Virus record (IMG/VR): IMGVR_UViG_3300012359_000032
Location: 1 to 40,172 of that record
Length of the DNA: 40,172 nt
Reading direction: 5' to 3' (one strand)
Source of the DNA: a virus
Under the pieces are notes generated by a model that saw only the letters and a program-made list of their open reading frames with translations, was not told where the DNA came from and made no database searches. Position numbers and translations under genes: made by a program. Shown in pieces: positions 7,182-32,933 of the stretch (its first letter is position 1; each line of letters begins with the position of its first letter).

Positions 7182-8517
7182 ACCGGATGGCTTCATCGAT
7201 CTATGGGGTCGCGACCATCGCAAGTCGACCATCATTACGTTCGGCAAGACGCTGCAGGACATTCTCGCGAGTCACGGCGATGATCCGCTCCCGGCTTGGG
7301 GTGGACGAGAACCGACTTTCGGTATTTTCAGCCACACACGCCCGATCGCCAAAGCGTTCCTGCGCCAGATCAAGCACGAACTCGAATCGAACGATGAGCT
7401 GCGCAGTTGGTTCCCTGACATCCTGTGGGCGAACAGCGAGCGCGAGGCGCCGACTTGGAGTCAGGACGATGGGATCGTCGTCCGGCGCAAATCCAACCCC
7501 AAGGAAGCCACGGTGGAGGCTTGGGGCGTGGTCGACGGCCAGCCCACGGGCAAGCATTTCGATGTCCTGGTCGACGATGACATCGTCACCTTGGGCAGCA
7601 TTGGCTCGCCCGACATGATTCAGAAAACCACCGACGCCTGGGCGCTGCATCTGAATCTCGGCACGGTCGAGACTCGACTGCGGGTGATTGGTACTCGCTA
7701 CCATCATGCCGATACCTATCGGGCCATGATCGAGCGCGGCGCGGTCAAGCAGCGGATCAGGCCGGCAACCGACGACGGCACGCTGACCGGAAATGCGGTT
7801 TATCTGACTCAGGATCAGTTCGAGAAGAAAGTTCGCGATATGGGGCCGTATGTGGCGAGTGCCCAGCTGCTCCAAAATCCCACCGTCGACAGTAAGCAGG
7901 CGTTCTTGCGTGAATGGCTGCGCCACTACGATGAGGCTAAGAACTGGCGCGGCATGAATCGAGCGCTGATCTGCGATCCGGCCAATTCGAAGAAGAAAAC
8001 CTCCGACTACACGACCATGGCCGTGATCGGTCAGGGGCCGGATGAGAACTACTACCTGCTCGACTACATCCGTGACCGGTTGGATCTTGAGGAGCGCGCG
8101 CAGAAGTTCATCGAATTGCATCGCAAGTGGGACAAGCCCAAAGCCGGTTACGAGAAATACGGCAAGGACTCAGACATCTCCGCGATCGCACGCATCCAGG
8201 GGGATGAGAACTACCGATTCGACATCATGGAGTTGGGTGGGTCACTGTCGAAGATCGACCGCATCAACCGGCTCATGCCGGTGTTCTCCGCCAATCGGTT
8301 CTACATGCCGCATCGGCTGATGTATACGCCGCATGACGGCAAAACCCTTGACCTGATTCACACGCTCATCGAGGAAGAGATGATGGCGTGGCCGGTGCCG
8401 GTGCATGACGACGGCCTGGATGTGATCGCCCGCATCTTCGACATGGGGCTCGCGTGGCCGAAGATCGTCAAGCCCAAACGCGAGCGCTCATACGCTGGCG
8501 GGAGTTGGGCATCGTGA
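6985..8517 (+). CDS. Terminase large subunit
   Basis: About 510 residues from GTG 6985; GTG 6949 (522 residues) and GTG 7003 are alternatives. Numbered from 6949, it has a variant Walker A WGRDHRKST (86-94), Walker B FDVLVDDD (204-211), the coupling motif VIGTRYHHADTY (246-257), and a C-terminal nuclease with ALICDPANSKKKTSDY (Asp 343) and HDDGLD near the end. It is the ATP-driven packaging motor that also cuts the concatemer. It overlaps the small subunit by about 200 bases in another frame, and its end overlaps the GNAT start by GTGA. Confidence 0.93.
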   Translation: MSQLPEVKRFYDDLERDLIEAPQSERQKGMRQLIRTDLYYLLRYVLGRTDMEHPWMLARIREVQREPDGFIDLWGRDHRKSTIITFGKTLQDILASHGDDPLPAWGGREPTFGIFSHTRPIAKAFLRQIKHELESNDELRSWFPDILWANSEREAPTWSQDDGIVVRRKSNPKEATVEAWGVVDGQPTGKHFDVLVDDDIVTLGSIGSPDMIQKTTDAWALHLNLGTVETRLRVIGTRYHHADTYRAMIERGAVKQRIRPATDDGTLTGNAVYLTQDQFEKKVRDMGPYVASAQLLQNPTVDSKQAFLREWLRHYDEAKNWRGMNRALICDPANSKKKTSDYTTMAVIGQGPDENYYLLDYIRDRLDLEERAQKFIELHRKWDKPKAGYEKYGKDSDISAIARIQGDENYRFDIMELGGSLSKIDRINRLMPVFSANRFYMPHRLMYTPHDGKTLDLIHTLIEEEMMAWPVPVHDDGLDVIARIFDMGLAWPKIVKPKRERSYAGGSWAS

Positions 8518-8924
8518 AAGCCGTCCACCTCAACGGCGAGATTCCGCACGGCATGCGCCCCGGTAGGCGTGAGCTAGGCGTCGCCTCGGTGAAGATTTCC
8601 ATCTCGGATGCTGTGCCGGTGCACATGAAAGGCGCGATACGCGAAGTGAGCCACCTGCACGTTCCCACCGAACACCGGCGCAAGCATTTGGGGACTGCGC
8701 TCCTAAATCTGATCTGCCAGGAAGCGGACGCGAATAGGGTCACGCTGCTGCTGATCGTCCAGCCCTTCGATGAGGGCGGACCAGATGAAGATCAACTGAT
8801 CGACTGGTACACGCTCTTCGGCTTCAAGACGCTCCAGGACAGCCCGACAGGGACAGTGATGGCAAGGCAAGTCCAGATTCCCAATCGCGTCAAGCGCGCT
8901 GTCTCCTTGGCCCTGGTGCACTGA
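8514..8924 (+). CDS. GNAT-family acetyltransferase
   Basis: 136 residues from GTG 8514 (GTGA overlap with the terminase stop). The acetyl-CoA loop is visible as VPTEHRRKHLGTALLNL (the R/Q-x-x-G-x-G/A motif A), followed by a late beta strand and FGFKTL, typical of GNAT enzymes. It lies between the terminase and portal genes and overlaps the portal start as TGATG, so it is expressed with the packaging genes. It could acetylate a virion or host protein; the target is unknown. Confidence 0.82.
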   Translation: MKAVHLNGEIPHGMRPGRRELGVASVKISISDAVPVHMKGAIREVSHLHVPTEHRRKHLGTALLNLICQEADANRVTLLLIVQPFDEGGPDEDQLIDWYTLFGFKTLQDSPTGTVMARQVQIPNRVKRAVSLALVH

Positions 8925-11044
8925 TGGAGGATAAGGACAAACCGGCAAGCGGGACCGACAAGGACGCGCTGATCAAGGAAGCGAAGGCGTATTTGGAACT
9001 CGTCTCCAAGGTCGATGGCGATAATCGCGATCAAGGCCTGGATGACCTGCGCAAGCTCGCCGGGGACCATTGGGACGACAAGGACAAGCGTCAGCGGCAG
9101 ATCGGCCGCCGGCCGTGCCTCACCATCAACAAGCTGCCGACGTTTTTGCACCAGGTGACGAACGATCAGCGGCAGAACGTGCCCTCGATCAAGGTCTCGC
9201 CGGTCGACAGCCATGCGGACATCGAGACGGCCGAAACCATTCAGGGAATGATTCGCCATATCGAGTATTCGAGTAACGCCGATGTGGCCTATGACACGGC
9301 GGTGAACAGCGCAGCCGCGATCGGCTTTGGCTATTTCCGGCTGATCACGGACTTCTGCACGCCCACGAGCTGGGATCAGGACATTCGCTTCCGGCGTATC
9401 CGCAATCCGTTCACGGTCTACATGGACCCGATGAGCGAGGAGCCGGACGGGTCGGATCAGAAGCGCTGCATGATCACGTCCAAAGAGGCGCGTACCGATT
9501 TCAAGCGCGAGAATCCGGACGCCGAAGCCTCGAACGAAGGCTTTGCGCTGGGCTTGGGCGATGCGTCGAACTCCGATTGGCTGGGCGAGGACTTTGTCCG
9601 CGTGGCTGAGTACTACCGCATCGAACAGACTGCGGCCACTGCAGTGCAACTCTCGAACGGCGAGACCGGATGGGAAGACGAGTTGGTCCAGATGCCGCCC
9701 GGGGTGACGATCAAGGCCAAGCGCAAGTCCTTTCGCCCGAAGACGATGCTCTACAAGATCACCGCCTTGGATATCTTGGAATCGACCGAGATCAAGTGCC
9801 AATGGATTCCGGTATTCCCGGTCTATGGCGATGAGATCGACTTGGACGGCAAGGTGATTCGCTCAGGGATCTTGAGGAACGCCAAAGACCCGTCGTTGAT
9901 GTATGACTACTGGATGACCGCGGCGACTGAGGAAGTCGCGATGCGCACCCGCACGCCGGTCGTCGGCGCCGAGGGTCAGTTCGAAGGGTACGAGGATGAC
10001 TGGGAAACGGCGAACGTCCGCAATATCCCCTATCTTGAGTACAAGATGACGGCCTTGGACGGCCAATTGGCGCCCCCGCCGCAACGTCAGCCGATGATCG
10101 ACATCCCGCAAGGCGTGCTCACCATGGCGATGCACGCCAACGACAACATCAAGGCCACCACGGGGTTATTCGATTCGAGCCTGGGTGCATTGGGCAACGC
10201 CCGCTCAGGGACCCAGGAACGCAGCCAGCAGCGCCAGGGCGACATGGCGAACTTCCACTTCTCGGACAACCTGAACCGCACGGTCAGGCATGTGGGCCGC
10301 TGCATCATCTCCATGCTCCCCGGTTACTACGACGCGCCGCGAATTGTCCGCATCATGGGTGAGGATGATTCGATCAAGCCGGCGCAGGTGAATCAGCCAA
10401 TCCCGCCGGAGCAGCAGCAGCAAGATCCCGAGACGGGCGCGATCAAGACGATCTTGAATGACTTGACCGTGGGTGAGTACGACGTGACGGTCTCCGCCGG
10501 TCCGTCCTACTCGACCTTACGCCAAGAAGCCGCGGACTCGATGATTCAGTTCGGCAAGTCCTGGCCGAAGCTCATGGACATTGCCGGCGATAAGGTCGTC
10601 AAGGCGATGGACTGGCCCGGTGCGACCGAGATTGCCGAGCGCATCGCCAAGACCATCCCGCCGCAGATTCGCGGGGACGACGACGAGGACAAGAACGCCC
10701 CGGTCGTCAATACGCCCAAGGGCCCGATCCCGGTCGATCAGGCCGCGCAGATGTTGGAGGAGATGGATCAGCACATCCAGCAGCTCAGCCAAGAGCTGCA
10801 AGCAGCGCAGAGCGGCATCACCAAGGCGAATATCGATGCCGAGTCGCGCGAGAACGTGGCTCAAATCAACGCCCAAGCCAAGTTGGAGTTAGGCGAGCTC
10901 ACCGGCCTGGTGCAACTGCTCATCGCCCGCATTCCCCCGCCGCCCTCCTTGGGCGACGCCGTCGCCGCTGATTTGGCTTATCGCCCCGAGCCTGGGTCCG
11001 GCTCGGCGAATGGCGCCACCGACCCATCAGGAGCCGCTCCATGA
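8924..11044 (+). CDS. Portal protein, P22 gp1 type
   Basis: 706 residues, the usual size for the P22 portal (about 725). The start has the family pattern of a helical N-terminus followed by RRPCLTINKLPTFLHQVTND and the RQNVPSIKVSPVDS segment. The C-terminal 120 residues are a Gln/Ala-rich helix (the barrel) with a Pro-rich tail. Twelve copies would form the ring through which DNA enters and leaves. It overlaps the scaffold start by ATGA. Confidence 0.93.
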   Translation: MEDKDKPASGTDKDALIKEAKAYLELVSKVDGDNRDQGLDDLRKLAGDHWDDKDKRQRQIGRRPCLTINKLPTFLHQVTNDQRQNVPSIKVSPVDSHADIETAETIQGMIRHIEYSSNADVAYDTAVNSAAAIGFGYFRLITDFCTPTSWDQDIRFRRIRNPFTVYMDPMSEEPDGSDQKRCMITSKEARTDFKRENPDAEASNEGFALGLGDASNSDWLGEDFVRVAEYYRIEQTAATAVQLSNGETGWEDELVQMPPGVTIKAKRKSFRPKTMLYKITALDILESTEIKCQWIPVFPVYGDEIDLDGKVIRSGILRNAKDPSLMYDYWMTAATEEVAMRTRTPVVGAEGQFEGYEDDWETANVRNIPYLEYKMTALDGQLAPPPQRQPMIDIPQGVLTMAMHANDNIKATTGLFDSSLGALGNARSGTQERSQQRQGDMANFHFSDNLNRTVRHVGRCIISMLPGYYDAPRIVRIMGEDDSIKPAQVNQPIPPEQQQQDPETGAIKTILNDLTVGEYDVTVSAGPSYSTLRQEAADSMIQFGKSWPKLMDIAGDKVVKAMDWPGATEIAERIAKTIPPQIRGDDDEDKNAPVVNTPKGPIPVDQAAQMLEEMDQHIQQLSQELQAAQSGITKANIDAESRENVAQINAQAKLELGELTGLVQLLIARIPPPPSLGDAVAADLAYRPEPGSGSANGATDPSGAAP

Positions 11045-11874: not shown

Positions 11875-13185
11875 ATGCGAGTCACCATAGCCAAGCCGAA
11901 CGTTTTCAACTCTTACGGCATTCTGTTGGCTCAAGGGTCGATCCAGACCGTCGACAACACTTTCGGTCAATCCTTGGTGTATTCGCTCCAGGCGACCGAT
12001 ACGGACGGCGTGCTGCCGTTCGCCGCGAACAGTCCCTTCTCCAACAGCGCAAGCGTTGCGGCTTTAGCCCAGAGCGGCATCAGCAATCTAACGCCGCAGA
12101 ACACTGGGCATGTTCGCGCCGCCGTTGCGCGAGTACTGGCTGGAACGGGCATCTGCAAAGTCGCCTGCATCGGCGATTCGATCGCTCTCGGTGCCTTCGC
12201 GAACGGCGTCGTCTATGCCGGCAATAAACCCTTGGGCTATCCCGCGCAGCTCGCCAAGATCTTAACCGCGCGCGGGCTCCCGGCGACGAACGACAGTTGG
12301 TTTGGCAGCGGCAACGTCGCCCCCGCCACCGCCGCGGGGTATACCGCTTACAACGCGGCCGTAACCTTCCCCGTCGCAGGCTTCGCCCCTGGCGCAATAG
12401 CGGGCCTTGGTGCCTTCGCAATGGCATCGACCACGAATGGCGCGACCCTTGCATTTACGCCGACGATCGCCTTCGACACCATCGATATCTATTACCTCGG
12501 CGGCACGGGTGGAGCGTTCAACGTCAATGTGGATGGCGGCGCGACGCTGCAGACCATCACGCCGAGCGGCACACATCTCCCCTTTGTCGCGACAATTACC
12601 GGGGTGGCACTTGCCACTCACACCATCAACATCGTGACCAATAGCGCGACGGGGGTATTTATCGCGGGCATGGCGGTGCGCGCCTCCGCGACTCCGCGGG
12701 TCGAGGTCTATAACTGCGGCTGGTCGGCCGCGCTCGTCTCCACCTATGCGCAGCCGACCAACAGTACCTTTCAATATAACTACTTCGTCGCATTGCCGGC
12801 GATGGCGCCGGATCTCACCGTCATTAACCTCACCGTCAACGATATCGACCAACAGCCGACCACGGTGGTTGCCTATCAAACGGCGCTGCAGAGCATGATC
12901 GCTCAAGCACTGGTATCGGGAGATTGCGCCCTGATGGTCGGGAACCCCGGCAACAAGGCGAGTTGGACCACGAATCCGGGTGTCGCCGCCGCCTATCAAG
13001 CGGCGGTGGCGAACCTCGCTTCTGCCGCCGGTATCCCGCTCATCGATATCACGCAGCGCTGGACCTCCTACGCGGTGACGAATCCCGTGATGCCCTACGG
13101 CGATCCTGGCGTGACTGCGCTGCATCCGGGCCAATCCGGGCATGCCGATATTGCGAAGGTCATTGCGGGACTCTGTGCCGCATGA
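11875..13185 (+). CDS. SGNH/GDSL-type hydrolase in the head cluster
   Basis: 436 residues. Residues 1-75 form a separate small domain, and the SGNH fold follows: IGDSIALG with Ser102 (block I), LTVNDID with Asn322 (block III), and LHPGQSGHADIAK with His417 (block V). Between blocks I and III lies a Thr/Ala/Gly-rich beta insert (about 145-275) that looks like a jelly roll. The usual DxxH acid three residues before the His is Thr414, so the triad acid is missing or replaced (Asp410 is near). The family includes carbohydrate esterases and deacetylases. Its place between scaffold and coat suggests a virion-associated enzyme, possibly acting on host surface sugar. Confidence 0.82.
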   Translation: MRVTIAKPNVFNSYGILLAQGSIQTVDNTFGQSLVYSLQATDTDGVLPFAANSPFSNSASVAALAQSGISNLTPQNTGHVRAAVARVLAGTGICKVACIGDSIALGAFANGVVYAGNKPLGYPAQLAKILTARGLPATNDSWFGSGNVAPATAAGYTAYNAAVTFPVAGFAPGAIAGLGAFAMASTTNGATLAFTPTIAFDTIDIYYLGGTGGAFNVNVDGGATLQTITPSGTHLPFVATITGVALATHTINIVTNSATGVFIAGMAVRASATPRVEVYNCGWSAALVSTYAQPTNSTFQYNYFVALPAMAPDLTVINLTVNDIDQQPTTVVAYQTALQSMIAQALVSGDCALMVGNPGNKASWTTNPGVAAAYQAAVANLASAAGIPLIDITQRWTSYAVTNPVMPYGDPGVTALHPGQSGHADIAKVIAGLCAA

Positions 13186-15275: not shown

Positions 15276-15983
15276 ATGCCAAGTCCTTCGACGGCCGGTG
15301 TGTTGGTTCGTTCGAGTTTGCGCTTGATCGGCGCGATCGCGACGGGCGAGACGCCGACGGCGGATGAGATGAACGATGGGTTGAGTTCGCTCAATGACCT
15401 CTTGGAGATCCTCTCGACCTCGAACCTCGCTGTCTATGGCTCGGCGGTCGAAACCTTCGCGACTGTGGCGACACAGGCGCTCTATACCATCGGTCCCGGA
15501 GGCAATTGGAACACGGCGCGGCCGGTGCGCATCGCCGGCGATGCGACCTGCACCTTCAATGGCGTTGATTTCCCGGTGGAGCAGATAGGGCAGGGTGAGT
15601 ACGACGCGATCGGCCTAAAGACGCAGCAGCAGCCGATCGTCGAGAAGCTGCTGTACGTGAACGATAACCCGTTGGGGCGAATCACGCTCTGGCCGGTCCC
15701 CTCCGGCATCGTCAATATCACGTTGAACACCGATCGGGTGTTGACCGCGGTGACCGATGTCAATACCGCAATGATCTTTCCGCCCGGCTACCTGTTGATG
15801 ATGCGTTATGCGCTCGCGATCCTAATGGCGCCTGATTATGGCATTGCGGTGAGCCCTGAGATTTCGAGTGTCGCGGCTTCCTCGCTCGCCTCGATCAAGC
15901 GCGCGAACAAGGTCAAGCGGCAGTCGACCTTTGACGGGGCATTGGTCGATAGCGGACCCGCGATCTGGGAAACCGGCGTATGA
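15276..15983 (+). CDS. Tail accessory / head-closure protein, P22 gp4 type
   Basis: 235 residues. The N-terminal helices (VRSSLRLIGAIATGETPTAD, then EMNDGLSSLNDLLEILSTSN) are the signature of the gp4-like adaptor family that docks below the portal and keeps packaged DNA in. P22 gp4 is 166 residues; this protein has an extra middle and C-terminal part. It overlaps the gp10-like gene by ATGA, as neck genes usually do. Confidence 0.85.
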   Translation: MPSPSTAGVLVRSSLRLIGAIATGETPTADEMNDGLSSLNDLLEILSTSNLAVYGSAVETFATVATQALYTIGPGGNWNTARPVRIAGDATCTFNGVDFPVEQIGQGEYDAIGLKTQQQPIVEKLLYVNDNPLGRITLWPVPSGIVNITLNTDRVLTAVTDVNTAMIFPPGYLLMMRYALAILMAPDYGIAVSPEISSVAASSLASIKRANKVKRQSTFDGALVDSGPAIWETGV

Positions 15984-17422
15984 ACCCAATCGCGTTCATT
16001 GGCGGCACGTATCTCTCACGGTCGCGTAATTTCGATGCGTCGAGGGCCATCAATCTTTACCCCGAAGCCTCCGGCTCCGGTCAGAGCAAATCAATTGCCA
16101 TGCTCGTGGGCACTCCCGGCCTCGTGCTGTTCTCAGCCCTCGCCGGCGGCGGGGTGCGCGGGTGTCTTCGCTTCACCGCGACGCAATCTATCGTGGTCGT
16201 CGGCGGGAATGTCTACAACGTCGATCCCAACGGCGTAGGGACGCTCATCGGCACCATCGTCAATCGTACGACCCCGGTCGATATGGCCTCGAACGGCCTC
16301 ACGGTCATGCTGGTGACGGGCGCGGAAGGCTACGTCGTCACGCCGAATGTCATCCTCGCGCTCTCGACCGTCGTGCAGATCACCAATCCCGCCTTCACCG
16401 GCGCGGATAAGGTCGATTATGCCGACGGCTATTTTGTGTTCAATAAACCAGGGACGGGGCAATTCCAGATCACCGGATTGCTCGCCAATACGATCGACCC
16501 CTTGGACTTTGCGACTGCCGAAGGCTCTCCGGATCTGCTCATCTCGCTCCTCGTGAACTTGCGCGAGATCTGGCTTTTTGGCAGCAACAGCACGGAAGTG
16601 TTTTTCGACAGCGGCAATGCGGATTTTCCCTTCGAACGCATTCAAGGCGCCTTCATCGAGCAAGGCTGCGCGGCGAAGAACTCGGTCGCGAAATTGAATG
16701 AAACCGTGGCATGGCTCTCATCCGATGATCGCGGACAGGGGATAGCGGTCATGGCGAATGGCTACCGGCCGACGCGCATCTCGACCCATGCCGAGGAATT
16801 CGCATGGAGTCAGTACGAACGGATCGATGATGCGATCGGCTACACCTACCAGCAGGAAGGGCACGTCTTCTATGTGCTCACCTTCCCTATGGGAAATGCC
16901 ACCTGGGTCTATGACGCCTCGACGCAGCTCTGGCACGAACGCGCGTGGCGAAATCCCGCCGATGCCTCGCTCAATCGTCATCGCTCGAACTGCCAGATGG
17001 CCTTTGGCGGAAAAATCATCGTCGGCGATTGGGAGAATGGCAATCTCTATTCGCTCGACCTCGACACCTACACCGACAATGGCGCAATTCTGCCCGCGAT
17101 CCGTCAGGCGCCGCACTATTCGAGCGGCGATAACACGTGGATGATCTTCGATCGCTTCTGGCTCGATCTCGAAACAGGCATAGGGTTAGCCACGGGTCAA
17201 GGCTCAGACCCCATGGTGATGATTGCCTGGTCGGATGATGGCGGTCACACCTTCCCGAACGAAGTCATGGTACCGGCAGGCAAGGTGGGCGAATACCGCC
17301 GCCGAGCCGTTGTGCGCCGTGCAGGCAAGTCACGGGATCGAGTGTGGCGGGTGACCATCACGGACCCCGTCAAACGCATCCTGATCGGTGCAGGGGCGAC
17401 CACGCGCCAGTGTGCGGCATGA
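15980..17422 (+). CDS. Packaged-DNA stabilisation protein, P22 gp10 type
   Basis: 480 residues (P22 gp10 is 472). It opens with the family signature FIGGTYLSRSRNFDASRAIN then LYPE, and continues as a repeated beta-rich (propeller-like) protein with the phrases EIWLFGSNSTEVFFDSGN and FPFERIQGAFIEQGC typical of the family. It forms the hexameric neck plug between gp4 and the tail needle or spikes. Overlaps by ATGA at both ends. Confidence 0.92.
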   Translation: MNPIAFIGGTYLSRSRNFDASRAINLYPEASGSGQSKSIAMLVGTPGLVLFSALAGGGVRGCLRFTATQSIVVVGGNVYNVDPNGVGTLIGTIVNRTTPVDMASNGLTVMLVTGAEGYVVTPNVILALSTVVQITNPAFTGADKVDYADGYFVFNKPGTGQFQITGLLANTIDPLDFATAEGSPDLLISLLVNLREIWLFGSNSTEVFFDSGNADFPFERIQGAFIEQGCAAKNSVAKLNETVAWLSSDDRGQGIAVMANGYRPTRISTHAEEFAWSQYERIDDAIGYTYQQEGHVFYVLTFPMGNATWVYDASTQLWHERAWRNPADASLNRHRSNCQMAFGGKIIVGDWENGNLYSLDLDTYTDNGAILPAIRQAPHYSSGDNTWMIFDRFWLDLETGIGLATGQGSDPMVMIAWSDDGGHTFPNEVMVPAGKVGEYRRRAVVRRAGKSRDRVWRVTITDPVKRILIGAGATTRQCAA

Positions 17423-17763: not shown

Positions 17764-18102
17764 ATGTCTGTCACAGCCCGATCACTCTTTGCCCCCAATC
17801 AGGCGGCCAATGCCACGACCATGCAGTACACCGCGACGGGCGTGCGCACGATCATCGACAAGTTCACCGGCACCAATACGACCGCGGGGGCAGTGACCTT
17901 GACCGTGTTTCTCGTGCCGAATGCCGGCGCCGCCGGGGTGACGAATACCATCGTCTCGGCTCGATCTCTCGCAGCAGGGGAGTGCTACACCTTCCCGGAG
18001 ATCGTCGGGCACGTGCTCAATAATGGTGATTTCTTGGCCACCCTCGCGAGTGCGGCGGCGTCGATCACGATCCGCGGCAGTGGGCGCGAGGTCACGGGAT
18101 GA
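17764..18102 (+). CDS. Small beta-rich structural protein
   Basis: 112 residues, start abutting the previous stop. It is a beta-sandwich-like sequence (ATTMQYTATGVRTIIDKFTG, then TVFLVPNAGAAG and ASITIRGSGREV) with little charge, common in phage particle proteins. It overlaps the SET-domain gene by ATGA. No family named. Confidence 0.68.
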   Translation: MSVTARSLFAPNQAANATTMQYTATGVRTIIDKFTGTNTTAGAVTLTVFLVPNAGAAGVTNTIVSARSLAAGECYTFPEIVGHVLNNGDFLATLASAAASITIRGSGREVTG

Positions 18103-18911
18103 ACCTCTCGTTGGCATCGATAAAGCGACTGGAATCAGCGCTGCTCACGATGCCGCAGGCCGACATCGTCACGATGCATGCGTTCCCGCCGGGGAAGTAT
18201 GAGCGAAAAATCATCATTCCGCCCTGGACCGTCTTGACCGGTGCGGAGCATAAAACCGCCTATGTCGTTCGCTTGGAGCGGGGAACCATCGCGGTTAATT
18301 CGGACAATGGGATCAAGATTCTCACCGCTCCCTGTGAATTCTCGGTACCCGCCGGCATGCAGCGCATCGGGCGCGTGTTCGAAGATGAGGTGATTTGGGT
18401 CGACATCTATGACAACCCGGATAATTGCGAGGACATCGCGACCTTAGAAGCGCGGCTCTATGTCATTCCCGAATGCGGGTTGGGTGAGAATCGTCTGATC
18501 GCTCGACTGGAGGCGGATCGGCAGGATTACGGCCGTTTCGTCGAGCAGCTGGGGATTTCGCAGCAAGCGATTGATGTCATGGTCAACACGGATGATTTGA
18601 TTCCGATGCCGCCGGGATTTGATGTGGAGGTGCGGCTCTCGCGCATTCACGGGCTTGGGCTATTCGCGTCGCGCGCTTTTGAGCCGGGTGAGTTCATTTG
18701 TCCCGGCCGCATCGATGGCCATCGAACCCCCGCAGGCCGTTACATCAATCATTCAGCGAATCCCAATGCCACCTCGGTCAAAAGCGGCGATGACATCGGC
18801 GCCGTGGCACTGCGAACCATTCAAGCGGGTGAGGAAATTCTCATCAGTTATCGAACCTCGGTCAAAGTCAATTTCGGTATCGAACTGGAGCCATCATGTC
18901 TGGATGGGTAG
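18099..18911 (+). CDS. SET-domain protein with cupin-like N-terminus
   Basis: 270 residues. Residues about 25-110 form a small beta domain (PPGKYERKIIIPPWTVLTGA and GTIAVNSDNGIKILTAP) resembling a cupin. Residues 179-253 are a compact SET domain with its three cofactor/knot motifs: GLGLFA (185-190), RYINHSANPN (214-223) and GEEILISY (244-251). The family transfers methyl groups from SAM to protein lysines. The domain is short (about 75 residues), with no post-SET zinc cysteines. It lies in the virion operon, overlapping both neighbours, so a phage structural or ejected host protein may be the substrate (inferred). Confidence 0.85.
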   Translation: MNLSLASIKRLESALLTMPQADIVTMHAFPPGKYERKIIIPPWTVLTGAEHKTAYVVRLERGTIAVNSDNGIKILTAPCEFSVPAGMQRIGRVFEDEVIWVDIYDNPDNCEDIATLEARLYVIPECGLGENRLIARLEADRQDYGRFVEQLGISQQAIDVMVNTDDLIPMPPGFDVEVRLSRIHGLGLFASRAFEPGEFICPGRIDGHRTPAGRYINHSANPNATSVKSGDDIGAVALRTIQAGEEILISYRTSVKVNFGIELEPSCLDG

Positions 18912-19588
18912 CAGGAGCGGTAGTCGTCGGCGGTGTTGTCGGTGCGGTGGCATCGAGTAGTGCCGCCAGTAAAGCAGCGCACGCGCAAGAGAATGCGGCA
19001 AATACCGCCTCTCAGACGCAATTGCAAATGTACAACCAGACGCGCGATGACCAGGCGCCCTGGCGTACGGCGGGTGGTACGGCCATCGGGCAACTGAGCG
19101 CGGGCACTGCGCCTGGTGCCGAGTTCAACCGCAATTTCACCATGAAGGATTTCAACGCGGACCCCGGCTATCAGTTCCGCATGGATCAGGGGAGCCGGGC
19201 GCTCCAAGCGAGTGCGGCCGCGCGGGGCGGATTGCTGAGTGGTGGCACGTTGAAAGCGCTGGATCGCTATGGCCAGGACTTTGCATCAAACGAATATTCG
19301 AATGCGTACAACCGCTTCAACAACAATCAGACGACGCGCTTCAATCGCTTGTCCACTATCGCAGGCCTAGGGCAGACCTCGGTCGGGCAGACCGGTGCGC
19401 AAGGCACGGCAGTGGGCGGCCAGATTGGTAGCAATTATATCGGCGCGGGTAATGCGCAGGCCGCGGGCTACGTCGGTCAAGCCAATGCGGTGAATAGCGG
19501 TATCTCATCGCTCGGCAACTTCTATCTGCAGCAGCAATATCTGAACAAAATTCCGTCCACCCCCTCTAGTGGCACGACGTGGGTATAA
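18896..19588 (+). CDS. DNA ejection protein, P22 gp7-like
   Basis: 230 residues. A Gly/Ala/Val hydrophobic start (WVAGAVVVGGVVGAVASSSA) is followed by a Gln/Asn/Gly-rich body with the phrase DPGYQFRMDQGSRALQASAA and ARGGLLSGGTLKAL, typical of gp7-like DNA-transfer proteins. It is packaged in the head and leaves through the neck to help DNA cross the envelope. Starts 16 bases before the SET gene ends. Good family and position match. Confidence 0.85.
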   Translation: MSGWVAGAVVVGGVVGAVASSSAASKAAHAQENAANTASQTQLQMYNQTRDDQAPWRTAGGTAIGQLSAGTAPGAEFNRNFTMKDFNADPGYQFRMDQGSRALQASAAARGGLLSGGTLKALDRYGQDFASNEYSNAYNRFNNNQTTRFNRLSTIAGLGQTSVGQTGAQGTAVGGQIGSNYIGAGNAQAAGYVGQANAVNSGISSLGNFYLQQQYLNKIPSTPSSGTTWV

Positions 19589-19597
19589 GGAATCACT

Positions 19598-21007
19598 ATG
19601 AGTGAAGTTGATCCGTCAATTGCCCTCGGAGTGCGCCCGGTCCAGTTCGCCAATCCCATGGAGTTGGCCTCCAATGCGATGCAACTGCGCAACTTAGGAC
19701 TCCAAGGGCAGAATCAGCAAATCACGCTTGAGCAGAATCAACGCGTGCTCAAGGATCAAAAGACCATCGCTGATTTGTATCGCGCGAATGTGCAACCCGA
19801 TGGCTCGGTGAATCATGCTGGCGTCGTGCAGGGCCTTGCGCAAGCCGGCCTTGGCGACAAAATCCCGGCCTATCAGCAGCAAGTCGCTACAGCATCGAAG
19901 GATACGACCGCCGCATCAAGCGCGGATTACGAGTTGCAGCAGAAAAAACTCACTGACATCGGCAACCGCCTCGCTTCACTGGTCTCCAAGCCAGACCTGT
20001 CCCGCCAGGATGTCATTGACCAAGTCAATCAGTTGGTCGACCAGCATTCTCTCAATCCGGATCAGCGCGATCAGATGCTTGCGCGCATTCCGCAAGATCC
20101 GAAGCAACTCAAGGATTTTCTAGTTCGCGCCGGGATGCAAAACCTAACCTTGCAGCAGCAGATCGCGACGCAGCTGTCCACCGCCCCGAAGTACAACGAA
20201 CAGGACACCGGCGGCGTCATCAACGAGGGCACGGTCGACCCGATGACCGGCGTGCGCACGGCGGGCACCACGAATGTCGTCAAGACGATGACGCCGGATC
20301 AGGCGGCCAAGATTGCGCTCCAGAAAAGCGGTGCGCTCACCGACGATACCAAGCAGTTCATGGCGGAGCGCTTGCTCAATGGCGAGAAGGCATCCGCTGT
20401 ACTTGGCAACTTGGGGCGTGGCGCACAAGGCGCGGCAGACTTGCGGGACGTGCAAAACCTGCTCCCGACGCTTGCCAAGCAAAAGGGCATTGGCGCCGCT
20501 CAACTCGCCAACATCATGCAGAACACCGCGGCCGATGCTCGAACCCTGACCGAGTTGGGCGCACGCGAAGGCAAGATCGCCCCGCGGGTACAGGAGGCCA
20601 TCAACTTTGGCGACATCGCCAAGCAGGCGAGCGCGGATGTTCCACGTGGAGGCTTCGTCCCCTGGAACCGGCTCTCGCAGACCGCAGACTCTGCGCTCTC
20701 AGATCCCAAACTCGCCAAGCTCAAGGCGGCGACCAATTCGCTCATCAATGCCTATGCGGCGGCCGTCGGCGGCGGCTCCCCCACGGTCCACGACAAGGAG
20801 GCGGCAGAGCACATGCTCTCCACCGCGCAGAGCCCGGAGGCTTACAACGCGGTAGTGGATCAGTTGATCCTGGAGAGTCAGAAGGCCTTGGATGCGCCCG
20901 GCCAGGTCCGTGCTCGCTTGAATGCCGGGGCAGGGCGTACCGCTGCTCCTGACGCCTCCCTTCCCCCTGATGTGGCGGCGGCCCTCGCGAAGCATGGGGC
21001 CCGATAA
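19598..21007 (+). CDS. DNA ejection protein (gp20-like position)
   Basis: 469 residues, Gln/Ala/Leu-rich, largely alpha-helical with no membrane segment and no enzyme motif. It lies between gp7-like and the large ejection protein, so its order matches P22 gp7-gp20-gp16 (gp20 is 471). The start ATG 19598 follows AGGAATC. The sequence itself diverges, so the assignment rests on order, length and composition. Confidence 0.75.
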   Translation: MSEVDPSIALGVRPVQFANPMELASNAMQLRNLGLQGQNQQITLEQNQRVLKDQKTIADLYRANVQPDGSVNHAGVVQGLAQAGLGDKIPAYQQQVATASKDTTAASSADYELQQKKLTDIGNRLASLVSKPDLSRQDVIDQVNQLVDQHSLNPDQRDQMLARIPQDPKQLKDFLVRAGMQNLTLQQQIATQLSTAPKYNEQDTGGVINEGTVDPMTGVRTAGTTNVVKTMTPDQAAKIALQKSGALTDDTKQFMAERLLNGEKASAVLGNLGRGAQGAADLRDVQNLLPTLAKQKGIGAAQLANIMQNTAADARTLTELGAREGKIAPRVQEAINFGDIAKQASADVPRGGFVPWNRLSQTADSALSDPKLAKLKAATNSLINAYAAAVGGGSPTVHDKEAAEHMLSTAQSPEAYNAVVDQLILESQKALDAPGQVRARLNAGAGRTAAPDASLPPDVAAALAKHGAR

Positions 21008-22743
21008 TGGCCACCCGCGAGGAAATCTACACCGCGATCCGCAACGCCGACAAGGCGGGCGATTCTGCGGCCGTGCGCACGCTCGGGGATTATCTCAAGA
21101 CGATGCCTGCCGACGATGCTGCAGCACCGAAGCCCATCGATGCGAGTTCGACGCATGAGATGGCAACGCATGAGGCAACGCTACTCGATAAGGTCAAACA
21201 GCAAACCGGAAATGTCGTGGCTGGCGCGGTACGCGGCGCAGGCAGCATCGGCGCCACCCTATTGACTCCCATCGACGCGGCGGCCCGCGCGGTCGGCATT
21301 CAAAACGACTATATCGGCCGTACCGATCGACGCGAGGCCATGGACGCGGGATTGAAGGCCCTCGGCGCCGATCCCAACTCCATCGCCTACAAGACGGGAA
21401 AGATTGGGGCAGAAATCGCAGGCACAGCTGGCGCAGGCGGCGCACTGGTCAGGGGCGCGACACTCATCCCTGGAGTCGCCCGCGCAGCTCCTGCGCTCTT
21501 AGATGCGATTGGGTCGGCTGGATTTAAGGCAGGCACCACGACGGGGGCGGCGAACCTGGCAACCCGGGTCGCGGGCGGCGCCATTTCGGGCGGCGCACAA
21601 GCGGGGCTCGTGGACCCCAATGATGCGGCGACCGGTGCTGCGGTGGGCGGCGCGCTCCCGGGCGTCGTCAAGCTGGCGGGCGCCGCCGGGAGTGCCGTAG
21701 GCACGGCCTTGGGCGGTAAGGCGCAAACGGCAGAGCAGCTCGCCAATGTGAACGCAGCCAGGGCCTCCGGGTATGTCGTGCCCCCGACGCAGGCCAAACC
21801 CTCCATCGTGAACAAAATCCTGGAGGGGTTCTCCGGCAAGATCACCACCGCGCAGAACGCCAGCGCGGCCAATCAGACGGTGACCAATGGTTTGGCGGCG
21901 AAAGCCTTGGGCTTGGCTCCCGATGTCAAGATCACGCCGGATCTCTTGCAGGACATTCGCAAGAAGGCCGGGGAGGCTTACGCGGATATTGGTACATCGG
22001 GCACCATTACGCCAGGACCGGAATATACTGAGGCGCTTGATAAAATCGCCGCTCCCGCCAAGAAAGCGGCTGAAGGATTCCCGAATGCGAAGCCGAGCCC
22101 TGTTATCGATCTCGTTGATTCGCTTCGCTCCCCTAGCTTTGACGCTTCGAGTGCCGTTGCCAAGATCAAAGAACTGCGCAGCGCGGCTGATGACGCATTT
22201 CGCACTGGCAATACTGACGTTGCTCGCGCTTCAAAAAGTGCTGCGACGGCTCTGGAAAATGCTCTAGAGACGCATCTCACCCAATCGGGGGATGCTCAAA
22301 AACTCGCTGACTTCCAAGACGCGCGCCAACTCATCGCGAAAACCTACAGCGTTGAGAAAGCGCTCAACCCGACGAGCGGCAATATCGATGCACGCAAACT
22401 CGCCGCACAGATTGCGAAAGGCAAGCCGCTCTCCGGTGAATTGAAAGACGCGGGCACCTTTGCCTCCAATTTCCCGAAAGCCGCCCAAACCCCGGAAGCG
22501 ATGGGCAGCCTGCCGCAATCGAGCCCCTTGGATTGGGCGATGGCGGGCGGGGTGGGGTTGGCGACGCATAACCCCCTGTCCCTGGTCGGTGTGGCCGCTC
22601 GTCCGATCGCAAGAACCGTCGCGCTCTCAAATCTCGTGCAAAACCGGCTGGGGACGACTCAGCCGGGGAAGCTCACGAAGATCAAGGATCTTTTGCAGCA
22701 GGGTTCTTTTCGTTCGGCGCCCGTCCTAGGGAGCGACCAGTGA
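21007..22743 (+). CDS. DNA ejection protein (gp16-like position)
   Basis: 578 residues (P22 gp16 is 609). The N-terminal helix (TREEIYTAIRNADKAGDSAA, VRTLGDYLKTM) is a recurring head-end motif of podovirus ejection proteins. A long Ala/Gly-rich, partly hydrophobic middle (about 65-240) could insert in membrane, and the C-terminus carries another hydrophobic patch. It would form part of the channel across the cell envelope. Role inferred from order and composition. Confidence 0.78.
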   Translation: MATREEIYTAIRNADKAGDSAAVRTLGDYLKTMPADDAAAPKPIDASSTHEMATHEATLLDKVKQQTGNVVAGAVRGAGSIGATLLTPIDAAARAVGIQNDYIGRTDRREAMDAGLKALGADPNSIAYKTGKIGAEIAGTAGAGGALVRGATLIPGVARAAPALLDAIGSAGFKAGTTTGAANLATRVAGGAISGGAQAGLVDPNDAATGAAVGGALPGVVKLAGAAGSAVGTALGGKAQTAEQLANVNAARASGYVVPPTQAKPSIVNKILEGFSGKITTAQNASAANQTVTNGLAAKALGLAPDVKITPDLLQDIRKKAGEAYADIGTSGTITPGPEYTEALDKIAAPAKKAAEGFPNAKPSPVIDLVDSLRSPSFDASSAVAKIKELRSAADDAFRTGNTDVARASKSAATALENALETHLTQSGDAQKLADFQDARQLIAKTYSVEKALNPTSGNIDARKLAAQIAKGKPLSGELKDAGTFASNFPKAAQTPEAMGSLPQSSPLDWAMAGGVGLATHNPLSLVGVAARPIARTVALSNLVQNRLGTTQPGKLTKIKDLLQQGSFRSAPVLGSDQ

Positions 22744-22877
22744 AGCCGCGATACAGGCCCCAAATGAATGCACACGCCACCACGAACGCGGCCCTCCAAA
22801 GCATGTACTGCGTGAAATGCATCGACGTTGATTATACGCGGGAAGCCCATTTCATCCAAATCAGGACGACCCTATGA
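22740..22877 (+). CDS. 45-codon linker ORF before the tailspike
   Basis: Reads from GTG 22740 to TGA 22877. It overlaps the ejection-protein stop as GTGA and the tailspike start as ATGA, closing the only gap in this part of the operon with no spare base. The peptide has two Cys (MYCVKC) and no clear fold. No good ribosome-binding site is seen, so translation by coupling is needed. It may be a real small gene or chance; the double overlap favours a gene. Confidence 0.4.
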   Translation: MKPRYRPQMNAHATTNAALQSMYCVKCIDVDYTREAHFIQIRTTL

Positions 22878-25000
22878 CCGCCGTCTTACTCCCGAACGGA
22901 AAACAGCAATTTTTCACCACCCCCGGTGTCCCGGCGGTGGGCTACAAGCTCATGACCTGGGCGGCCGGGACCTCAACGCCGCAAACGACCTGGGCCGATG
23001 CCTTAAAGATCGGCGCCAACCCCAACCCGATCATCTTGGATGCGCGCGGGGAGGCGGTGATCTTCTGGGATGGGGCCTACAAGATCCAATTGCAGGATGC
23101 GAGCGGAGCTCCCGTGTGGGCGCCGGTCGATAACGTCAGTTCGCTTCCCTCCTTCTCTGCATCGCTGATTCCGACCGCCGACAACTCCTTCACGCTCGGA
23201 AGCGCCGCCTTCTCATGGGAGAACCTGTATTTAGGGCCGGGCGATGCAGTCGCCTATGATTCGGTCAGCGGCAACATCGCCTATTTCAAGCGCACCGATG
23301 CCGAGATCGCGGCGGGTGTGACCCCCATTGCCTTTGGCTATCCCCCGGGAGACATTCGCCGCTTTTGCTTATTGAACGGCACCGATGAAACGGCCGGCGT
23401 GCAGAACTGGGCCAAGGTCGGCGGCAATTTGAGCTTCCCCGTGGCTCAGTCCGTCCTCATCACGGCACCCGTTCCTTTGGTGAGCAATACCACGATCACC
23501 GCCGTCGATGGGGCGATCATCCAGACGGCGACACCCGACATCAGCCTGTTCACGGCAGCCAGCAAGAATCATATCAGCATTCTCAATCTGCATTTCAAGC
23601 AGACGGTCGCATTAGCAGCGACCTCCATTGCTGGCGTATTTCTGGATGCCTGTAGCGATTGCGTCATCGAGGAGTGCGAGTTCGAGGGGATGCAATTCGC
23701 CGGCATCTTCGCTCAAGCCGTGCAGCGCTGCACCTTTCGCGGCAACTATTTTCACGATCCGTTGCTCGGGACCGGTACGCGGCAAAATAGCGCCGACATT
23801 TACTTGGCTTCAAGTCCCACCACCGGAGCCAATAATAACGTCATCGATGGGAACTTCTGCTACGGCTCGCTGTTTGAATTTGGAGTGGCGGTGTGGGACC
23901 CGTATGCGGGGGCGCTCCCGATCAACAACATTGTCATCAACAATCGCATCGGCGCGCATCAGGGCTATGGCATTCTGATTTACATGCCGGATGCCGGGGA
24001 TTCCTATAACCAGATCATCGGCAATCATGTGCAGGATATTTCCGCGCATTCGACCAACACTGATAGTGGGGCAGGTATTTATCTTGCCGGCGCCGGCATG
24101 GGCGGCACGCAAGTCATCGGCAACACGGTGCAGAACTGCTGCACCACGACCAGCACGACTTCACTGGCTCCCGCGGGCATCGGGGTCAATGCGGCTGGCT
24201 TGACGTTGGGCACTATGCCGATTGTCATTGCCAACAACATCATCGATGGCATGACCAAATATTACGGCATTCTGTTGACCGGTGTCTTAGGCGGCGCCTC
24301 AGTCACCGGCAATACCATCCGTCAGCCTGCAGGCAACACCACCGGGGATGCCTTGCGCGTAGTCAACTCCGATAACGTCACGGTCGCCAACAACACGATT
24401 TTGCAAGCGAATTCGACCACCAACCAGGAATGCATCGTATTCGCCGCTTTAGGGGTGAACTGCACCAACTGCGCATGTGTCGGCAACACCATCCGCGGCG
24501 GCCACCACAGCCAGATCCGGTGCTTGCAGAGCGGTGGGTTCCAGGTGCAAGAGCTGACGATCACGGGCAATGTCTGCTCGGGCGGCGATGGCTCCTGCGT
24601 GCCCCTGATTCTGGATACCGCCGCCGCCGCCGATGTCATGGTCGCTTCCAATGTATTTTCTTCTGGTGCCTCCGCAGCCGTACAGCAGAACGCCTGCACC
24701 TCGGTGCGTTACACGGGTAATCGGCTGCGCAGCACCGGCGCGACCGTATTTGCGACGACTGGCGCCAATACCTCGAGCTACTTCGACAAGACCAATACCG
24801 GCGTCGGGATTGGCGTGGGCATCTCCAATGGCGGCACGCTGCTATTGATCGAGCAGCATGGCGCCGCGGCACCCGCCGCGGGTTTGTGGGCGGTGGGCGA
24901 TCGGATCGAACAATCAGTCCCGGTGGTCGGGAATCCGAAGGGCTGGCGCTGCACGGTCGCGGGAACGCCGGGAACGTTTGTCAGCGAAGGAAATCTATGA
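22874..25000 (+). CDS. Tailspike with right-handed beta-helix
   Basis: 708 residues (P22 gp9 is 667). Residues 1-95 form a capsid-binding head domain (LPNGKQQFFTTPGVPAVGYK then MTWAAGTSTPQT). Residues about 160-600 show parallel beta-helix repeats with the ladder of N-x-I/V and G-N phrases (VIDGNFCYGS, NIVINNRIG, QIIGNHVQD, VIGNTVQNC, VANNTILQA). The C-terminal 90 residues are a trimerisation/cap region. This is the receptor-binding protein and probably a polysaccharide lyase or hydrolase; its substrate (O-antigen or capsule) cannot be read from the sequence. Confidence 0.9.
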   Translation: MTAVLLPNGKQQFFTTPGVPAVGYKLMTWAAGTSTPQTTWADALKIGANPNPIILDARGEAVIFWDGAYKIQLQDASGAPVWAPVDNVSSLPSFSASLIPTADNSFTLGSAAFSWENLYLGPGDAVAYDSVSGNIAYFKRTDAEIAAGVTPIAFGYPPGDIRRFCLLNGTDETAGVQNWAKVGGNLSFPVAQSVLITAPVPLVSNTTITAVDGAIIQTATPDISLFTAASKNHISILNLHFKQTVALAATSIAGVFLDACSDCVIEECEFEGMQFAGIFAQAVQRCTFRGNYFHDPLLGTGTRQNSADIYLASSPTTGANNNVIDGNFCYGSLFEFGVAVWDPYAGALPINNIVINNRIGAHQGYGILIYMPDAGDSYNQIIGNHVQDISAHSTNTDSGAGIYLAGAGMGGTQVIGNTVQNCCTTTSTTSLAPAGIGVNAAGLTLGTMPIVIANNIIDGMTKYYGILLTGVLGGASVTGNTIRQPAGNTTGDALRVVNSDNVTVANNTILQANSTTNQECIVFAALGVNCTNCACVGNTIRGGHHSQIRCLQSGGFQVQELTITGNVCSGGDGSCVPLILDTAAAADVMVASNVFSSGASAAVQQNACTSVRYTGNRLRSTGATVFATTGANTSSYFDKTNTGVGIGVGISNGGTLLLIEQHGAAAPAAGLWAVGDRIEQSVPVVGNPKGWRCTVAGTPGTFVSEGNL

Positions 25001-32396: not shown

Positions 32397-32933
32397 TCAC
32401 CACTTGAAACCGAAATCGCGACGTTTGATCTTCGCCATGCGGCCGTCAGGGTGATGCCAAACGAGACCCTCCATATGCTGGTCTTGCAGGTAGTCGTGGA
32501 TATCCTCGAACGTGCGGGGGTTGCCACGGATCGATTCGTTGCCATGACGCACCAGGACGTGCGCAGGGAAGCCGCCTTTATTCCCCTGGACCTTCGGTCC
32601 CATCAATTCGTAGGTACCGCTAGGCTGGCTGTGGAACGCCTCGCGATGCCATTGGTCCTCGGTGGACTCGGTGACAGGAACCCATCCAACCGTCTTACCG
32701 GTCTCGTCGTCAAAATCGGCTTGCTCGAAGTCTGCCGGCGCAGACTGACCGGGCTTCAACTCCCGACGCTTGAACAGTTTCCCATCACGGATCAGGCAGC
32801 ATGTGCCGTCGTTCTTGATCGTCGGCACGCCTTCACCGTCACGCACCCACTCGCAACCTGCCTTCCATTCTGGCGTAACTAGCGCAGGTTGTTTGGACAT
32901 GTCGCGCACGAAGATCGTTGGTATTTTCTTCAA
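32397..32933 (-). CDS. Ligase-like nucleotidyltransferase (DUF5565-like)
   Basis: 178 residues from a TTG start at 32933, supported by a TTGA overlap and by the conserved MKKIPTIFVRD opening. It carries the covalent nucleotidyltransferase motifs: TIKNDGT (KxDG, Lys40), YELMGPK (motif III), EGLVWHHPDG (motif IV) and AKIKRRDFG (motif V). The protein is only the adenylation core, with no OB domain. Such proteins join or cap nucleic acid ends, and RNA ligases of this compact kind repair tRNA cut by host defences. The specific substrate is not determined. Confidence 0.75.
   Translation of the reverse strand: MKKIPTIFVRDMSKQPALVTPEWKAGCEWVRDGEGVPTIKNDGTCCLIRDGKLFKRRELKPGQSAPADFEQADFDDETGKTVGWVPVTESTEDQWHREAFHSQPSGTYELMGPKVQGNKGGFPAHVLVRHGNESIRGNPRTFEDIHDYLQDQHMEGLVWHHPDGRMAKIKRRDFGFKW

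Follow-up and report, generated by a model that had tools for sequence, protein, structure and literature searches.

The virus record analyzed here (i.e., an entire IMG/VR record of 40,172 bases, referred to as the window) encodes a 270-amino-acid (aa) protein in which an N-terminal cupin is fused to a compact SET domain (positions 18099 to 18911, plus strand; ORF with an ATG start). SET domains represent the kind of enzyme that is best known for protein methylation in eukaryotes. Both the architecture of the gene and its position are conserved across very diverse podoviruses, which upholds the initial annotation of a compact SET domain in a virion operon. The product is probably a genuine tool for protein modification, though not an indispensable one. 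Our preferred reading, which we hold tentatively, is that it acts as an accessory protein-lysine methyltransferase whose minimal SET core is held by a non-metal cupin at the site of tail/ejection assembly, where it would methylate a protein.

Fold and active site of the SET domain

The SET domain, which has a reduced SET-I insert, occupies residues 170 to 255 (18606 to 18863, plus strand). It matched the Pfam SET profile (PF00856) with an E value of 5.9e-13 and a score of 49.6 bits (cut-off, 22.4), and the same profile was matched at E values of 0.001 or better by 41 of 43 relatives. The three signature motifs that had initially been read from the sequence are all present on the plus strand within 67 residues, namely, G185-x-G187 on the SAM side (G185-L-G187; 18651 to 18659), RYINHS for SAM binding and the knot (R214-Y-I-N217-H218-S; 18738 to 18755), and EEILISY (E246 to Y251, EILISY; 18834 to 18851). 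There is no variation at S181, G185, G187, G213, R214, N217, H218, E246, or Y251 among 168 distinct homologues, which extend down to about 30% identity, and Y251 stands in the place of the catalytic tyrosine.

The SET fold, whose absence from a predicted structure the initial annotation had named as grounds for rejection, was present in the AlphaFold2 models. The model of the whole protein (40 homologues) had a mean pLDDT of 92.3 and a pTM of 0.60, at which the mutual placement of the cupin and the SET domain is uncertain. The SET domain is preceded by a helical linker (residues 128 to 174; 18480 to 18620, plus strand) with four nearly invariant residues (D143, G152, D166, and P171), and this linker also precedes SET in the cupin-less forms L104 and L105. 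Because the linker and the SET domain predicted alone gave the SET fold with a pLDDT of 93.2 and a pTM of 0.86, the linker helices and the SET domain are modeled as one unit. In a VIA-align comparison with the SET domain of MLL1 with SAH (7u5v), the SET model yielded a Z score of 10.5 and an rmsd of 1.5 Å over 78 residues with 37% identity. Both segments that would form the knot superposed on those of MLL1 (residues 170 to 252). The fold and the GxG, NHS, and E..Y motifs are the same as in the SET domains of MLL1 and MLL3 (KMT2).

The difference from MLL1 lies in size. Residues 170 to 252 of the window protein (83 residues) correspond to residues 3823 to 3945 of MLL1 (123 residues), i.e., the window domain is about 40 residues shorter and SET-I is nearly gone. 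Positions 1 to 18 of the Pfam profile correspond to residues 185 to 202 and positions 60 to 104 to residues 211 to 251, and eight residues (203 to 210) replace profile positions 19 to 59, i.e., SET-I. This insert is normally the substrate reader, and since it is missing, the usual peptide groove is removed. In each of the 167 distinct proteins that were measured, the Asn of N-H follows the second Gly of GxG at a distance of exactly 30 residues; in MLL2, the corresponding distance is 64 (by printed alignment). All 168 homologues have V, I, T, or L at position 249, which precedes the catalytic Tyr by two residues; we take this position to be the "F/Y switch" site, which is aromatic in many SET enzymes. 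The window protein has an aliphatic residue there (I249), not Tyr or Phe as in MLL1 and MLL3. The vSET protein of chlorella virus PBCV-1 (A612L; 3kma) is also a small viral SET methyltransferase (Z score of 9.2 and rmsd of 2.5 over 81 residues), but it uses 105 residues for the 81 that align; it is a stand-alone protein of a eukaryotic virus, whereas the window domain forms part of a cupin fusion encoded in the virion operon of a phage. Being more compact than vSET, the window domain may show the minimal size of a working SET enzyme and how a substrate can be found without SET-I. On the basis of the profile, the predicted fold, GxG, NH, and the catalytic Tyr, the domain is assigned to the SET-domain superfamily; it is not a canonical SET lysine methyltransferase, because SET-I is missing.

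The near absence of SET-I and the short spacing between GxG and N-H would suit a SET fold that is structural or serves binding only (e.g., of a peptide or of SAM) and is inactive as a methyltransferase. We consider this improbable, as the full SAM-binding and catalytic set, including Y251 and the N217-H218 pair (invariant in 168 of 168), would be needless for structure. Purifying selection was evident in pairwise comparisons of close relatives (Nei-Gojobori), with median dN/dS values of 0.10 for the SET domain, 0.084 for the linker, and 0.055 for the cupin. To judge from these sequences, invariance of the SAM-site and catalytic residues would be surprising in an idle domain. We propose that the domain would be a catalytically competent, SAM-dependent SET protein-lysine methyltransferase, reduced to a minimal core and mounted on a non-metal cupin.

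The cupin and its operon slot

The proposed fusion to a cupin-like domain was confirmed by structure comparison. About residues 20 to 120 (18156 to 18458, plus strand) are modeled as an RmlC-like jelly roll, whose double-stranded beta-helix barrel aligned with 4e2g (VIA-align; Z score of 10.5 and rmsd of 3.0 over 94 residues), and the domain matches phrog_12032 and phrog_24280. None of the ligand histidines of motifs 1 and 2 is conserved in the cupin alignment, and on these grounds a JmjC-like or metal-dependent cupin enzyme was ruled out. The "short tail fiber" cupins of PHA00672/phrog_12032 (BPP-1 Bbp23, BA3, and Vibrio phages) are homologous, and their genes likewise belong to the late operon, in which the ejection gene is usually the next one downstream; unlike the window protein, they have no SET domain. 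SET-less cupins are found in BPP-1 (Bbp23), Thalassomonas phage BA3, many Vibrio phages, Alteromonas phage H4/4, and Sphaerotilus phage R1. The short tail fiber or adhesin reading of the cupin comes only from the labels of phrog_12032 and phrog_24280, and the VvAW1 annotation of PHA00672 is that of a hypothetical phage protein (PMC3558961). In BPP-1, a separate GNAT acetyltransferase-like gene (bbp24; L106, 8444 to 8908) overlaps the cupin gene bbp23 and is a second type of group-transfer enzyme beside the same cupin.

Upstream of the cupin-SET gene, the plus strand carries genes for head closure protein Hc3 (P22 gp10-like; 15980 to 17422; phrog_578, 1.3e-127) and for a 112-aa protein (17764 to 18102; phrog_20100, 2.6e-6). 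The latter gene, which overlaps the cupin-SET gene by 4 nucleotides (nt), is conserved in many of the relatives' loci at 37 to 68% identity. At its 3' end, the cupin-SET gene overlaps by 16 nt the gene for a gp7-like DNA ejection protein (18896 to 19588, plus strand); the initial annotation had described this overlap, and the identity of the gp7-like protein is supported by phrog_598 ("DNA ejection"; 5.5e-48). Next on the same strand are a 469-aa gene at the gp20 position (19598 to 21007) and a 578-aa gene at the gp16 position (21007 to 22743). Their products matched no Pfam or PHROG family, and the labels "gp20-like" and "gp16-like" are given by position only; weak tblastn homologues of the 469-aa gene occur at the same place in relatives.

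Other genes of the window were also characterized. A 708-aa tailspike-like protein (22874 to 25000, plus strand) has a right-handed beta helix; conservation among relatives is seen in its first 100 residues, the remainder being variable. A 436-aa gene (11875 to 13185, plus strand) is inserted between the scaffold and coat genes; it carries the GDS and LHPGQSGH motifs of SGNH esterases, and its matches in Arthrobacter and Gordonia phages are "esterase" or minor tail genes. Rhodoferax phage P26218 has no gene at this site. The early region encodes an RNA ligase-like protein (32397 to 32933, minus strand; phrog_14301, 8.4e-54).

In most cases, the gp7-like ejection gene comes directly after the cupin gene. 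The slot of the cupin gene is bounded upstream by Hc3 or the tail nozzle and downstream by gp7-like or internal virion proteins, and it recurs in P22-like, BA3/Vibrio, Zobellviridae, and Krylovirinae phages; the exceptions are BPP-1 and H4/4, in which the cupin gene precedes the portal gene. A gp7-family gene was present in 69 of 71 loci with SET and in 35 of 37 loci without it. T7 gene 13 (PF11090; "probable scaffold protein" in Pfam) occupies that same slot: it follows tail tube B and precedes gp14, the first internal virion protein. No sequence match between T7 gp13 and the cupin-SET protein was seen, and the likeness is one of position only; to our knowledge, gp13 is not known as a methyltransferase. 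By analogy, the shared position suggests an assembly role for the cupin protein. We propose that the cupin would be the conserved working part of the slot and would most likely bind the tail or ejection-protein assembly, as the product of T7 gene 13 is thought to do at the same place. The cupin would bring the SET module to this assembly, and SET would methylate one or more lysines of a protein bound to it late in infection; an ejection or tail protein would be the most likely target.

A possible, though doubtful, alternative is that the cupin is a structural or ejected protein of the virion that carries SET into the host at DNA entry, where a host protein would be methylated for takeover or counter-defense. 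It is favored by the overlap of the SET gene with the ejection gene and by the database labels that name the cupin a short tail fiber or adhesin. The proteome of T7-like phage phiPsa17 particles points the other way, as it lists gp14, gp15, and gp16 but not gp13, the protein of the T7 slot (PMC4517105).

The SET domain as an optional module

Within the family, it is the cupin that is constant; SET comes as an optional module. SET is present in 72 and absent from 37 of 109 untruncated close cupin relatives. A tree of the cupin only (63 rows) requires at least nine changes in SET state, at least six of which are forced by well-supported branches; as this tree alone does not distinguish gain from loss, the direction of change was taken from sister pairs. 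The flanks in these pairs are alignable at 66 to 95% identity, and the gap at the SET site corresponds to a clean in-frame excision. In L122, L127, and L147, a remnant of the SET C terminus persists and the catalytic Tyr is lost. Because of these gaps and remnants, the changes in SET state are considered to be mostly losses, via in-frame excision or decay. A search for PF00856 elsewhere in SET-less contigs (three of them 35 to 37 kb; all possibly incomplete) gave no match, and relocation of SET within these phages was rejected within that scope.

The repeated loss of SET argues against an essential role in virion assembly. According to our preferred reading, SET would be lost again and again with the cupin kept because methylation would be beneficial but not essential. 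The ease of this loss is equally compatible with a host-directed accessory factor and with a modifier of virions, and repeated loss with the cupin kept, combined with strong purifying selection where SET is present, is the pattern of a host-dependent accessory that would be expected of a SET domain carried into the host. The natural presence and absence of SET among close relatives, with at least six independent losses, provides a ready comparison for the benefit of the modification.

In a prophage of Paraburkholderia ferrariae (L102), the cupin (ORF at 7893 to 8393) and SET (ORF from 8393) are encoded by separate overlapping genes, and this natural split supports a function shared by the two. 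SET also occurs without the cupin in L104 and L105, and the SET-only gene of L104 is near genes resembling a tail or ejection module. These cupin-less forms, together with compact SET ORFs elsewhere in phages (e.g., beside nrdB in P-SSM7), are what one would expect if SET were a passenger gene (moron) of the operon that acts on something unrelated to virions. This explanation seems quite improbable to us, since the fusion and its position persist in relatives at about 30% identity and the split form still has cupin and SET side by side. The L102 pair (7893 to 9115) adjoins DnaB-like and small-terminase-like genes, not tail genes.

Candidate substrates and occurrence of the family

On the basis of gene position, an ejection or tail protein ranks first as the candidate substrate, and a host protein ranks close behind because of the repeated loss of SET. 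The initial annotation had suggested methylation of a virion protein or, alternatively, delivery of the enzyme itself to the host. We compared the lysines of eight neighboring gene families between relatives with and without SET. No lysine of the neighboring conserved proteins was convincingly kept with SET and lost without it, the gp20- and gp16-like alignments being poor; the single weak column was position 6 of the 112-aa protein, which is lost in two lineages. Lysine covariation, a weak form of evidence, thus gave no convincing substrate candidate in the eight families. The earlier interpretation is retained in part: the compact SET-cupin methyltransferase fold in the virion operon stands, while the methylation of a virion protein gained no support, as no lysine of the neighboring conserved proteins convincingly tracks SET. 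The same result would agree with delivery of SET into the host. A further form of that idea, namely, a widespread podovirus family whose ejection apparatus includes an optional SET lysine methyltransferase that is passed into bacteria at DNA entry and methylates a host protein there (i.e., a phage-injected SET effector), appears rather unlikely.

None of the neighboring gene families near the locus tracks the presence of SET. A comparison of three SET-less and four SET-carrying near-whole contigs revealed three small genes found only in the SET-less contigs and a difference in the replication module. Because one SET-carrying contig (G015) has the replication module of the SET-less type, this comparison is confounded, and seven contigs are too few. 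The three small genes (L273, 4183 to 4440, 5961 to 6407, and 8947 to 9201), which are common to the three SET-less contigs and absent from the four others, are a weak lead, confounded by replication type.

In IMG/VR, 386 stretches encode relatives (one SET pattern search), and the architecture occurs in hundreds of viral contigs. The window protein matched phrog_34170 over residues 3 to 259 (2.9e-37), i.e., over its whole length; this family contains the same cupin-SET protein of other phages and has no assigned function. Two members come from cultured phages: that of Pseudoalteromonas phage PH1 is labeled "hypothetical," and that of Rhodoferax phage P26218 carries no annotation beyond "similar to putative tail fiber protein." For a member from a Manatee Spring podovirus, the annotation reads "pbcV-1 histone H3-lys 27 methyltransferase structure," and uncultured phages are represented in UniProt by entries named "SET domain containing protein." Nine loci, Paraburkholderia among them, were found in bacterial genome assemblies. 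NCBIfam had no family match for the window protein or the SET relatives tried, and a cyanophage ORF gave only weak matches below the cut-off. In the open literature searched, we found no study on SET proteins of phages, no report of activity or SAM binding for a family member, and no virion proteomics for a cupin homologue; the P26218 paper has no mass spectrometry. The kind of enzyme and the "SET domain" annotation of some relatives were already known; what is new is how large the family is, that SET is optional on an operon protein that is itself constant, and how extremely compact the domain is. Protein-lysine methylation has been little studied in phages. Since this large and strongly conserved family has members in cultured phages (P26218 and PH1), the question is directly testable. 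Cyanophage P-RSM6 has a compact, SET-like ORF of 100 aa next to gp25 and baseplate wedge genes (L112, 3058 to 3357); it is perhaps an independent SET within a virion gene cluster.
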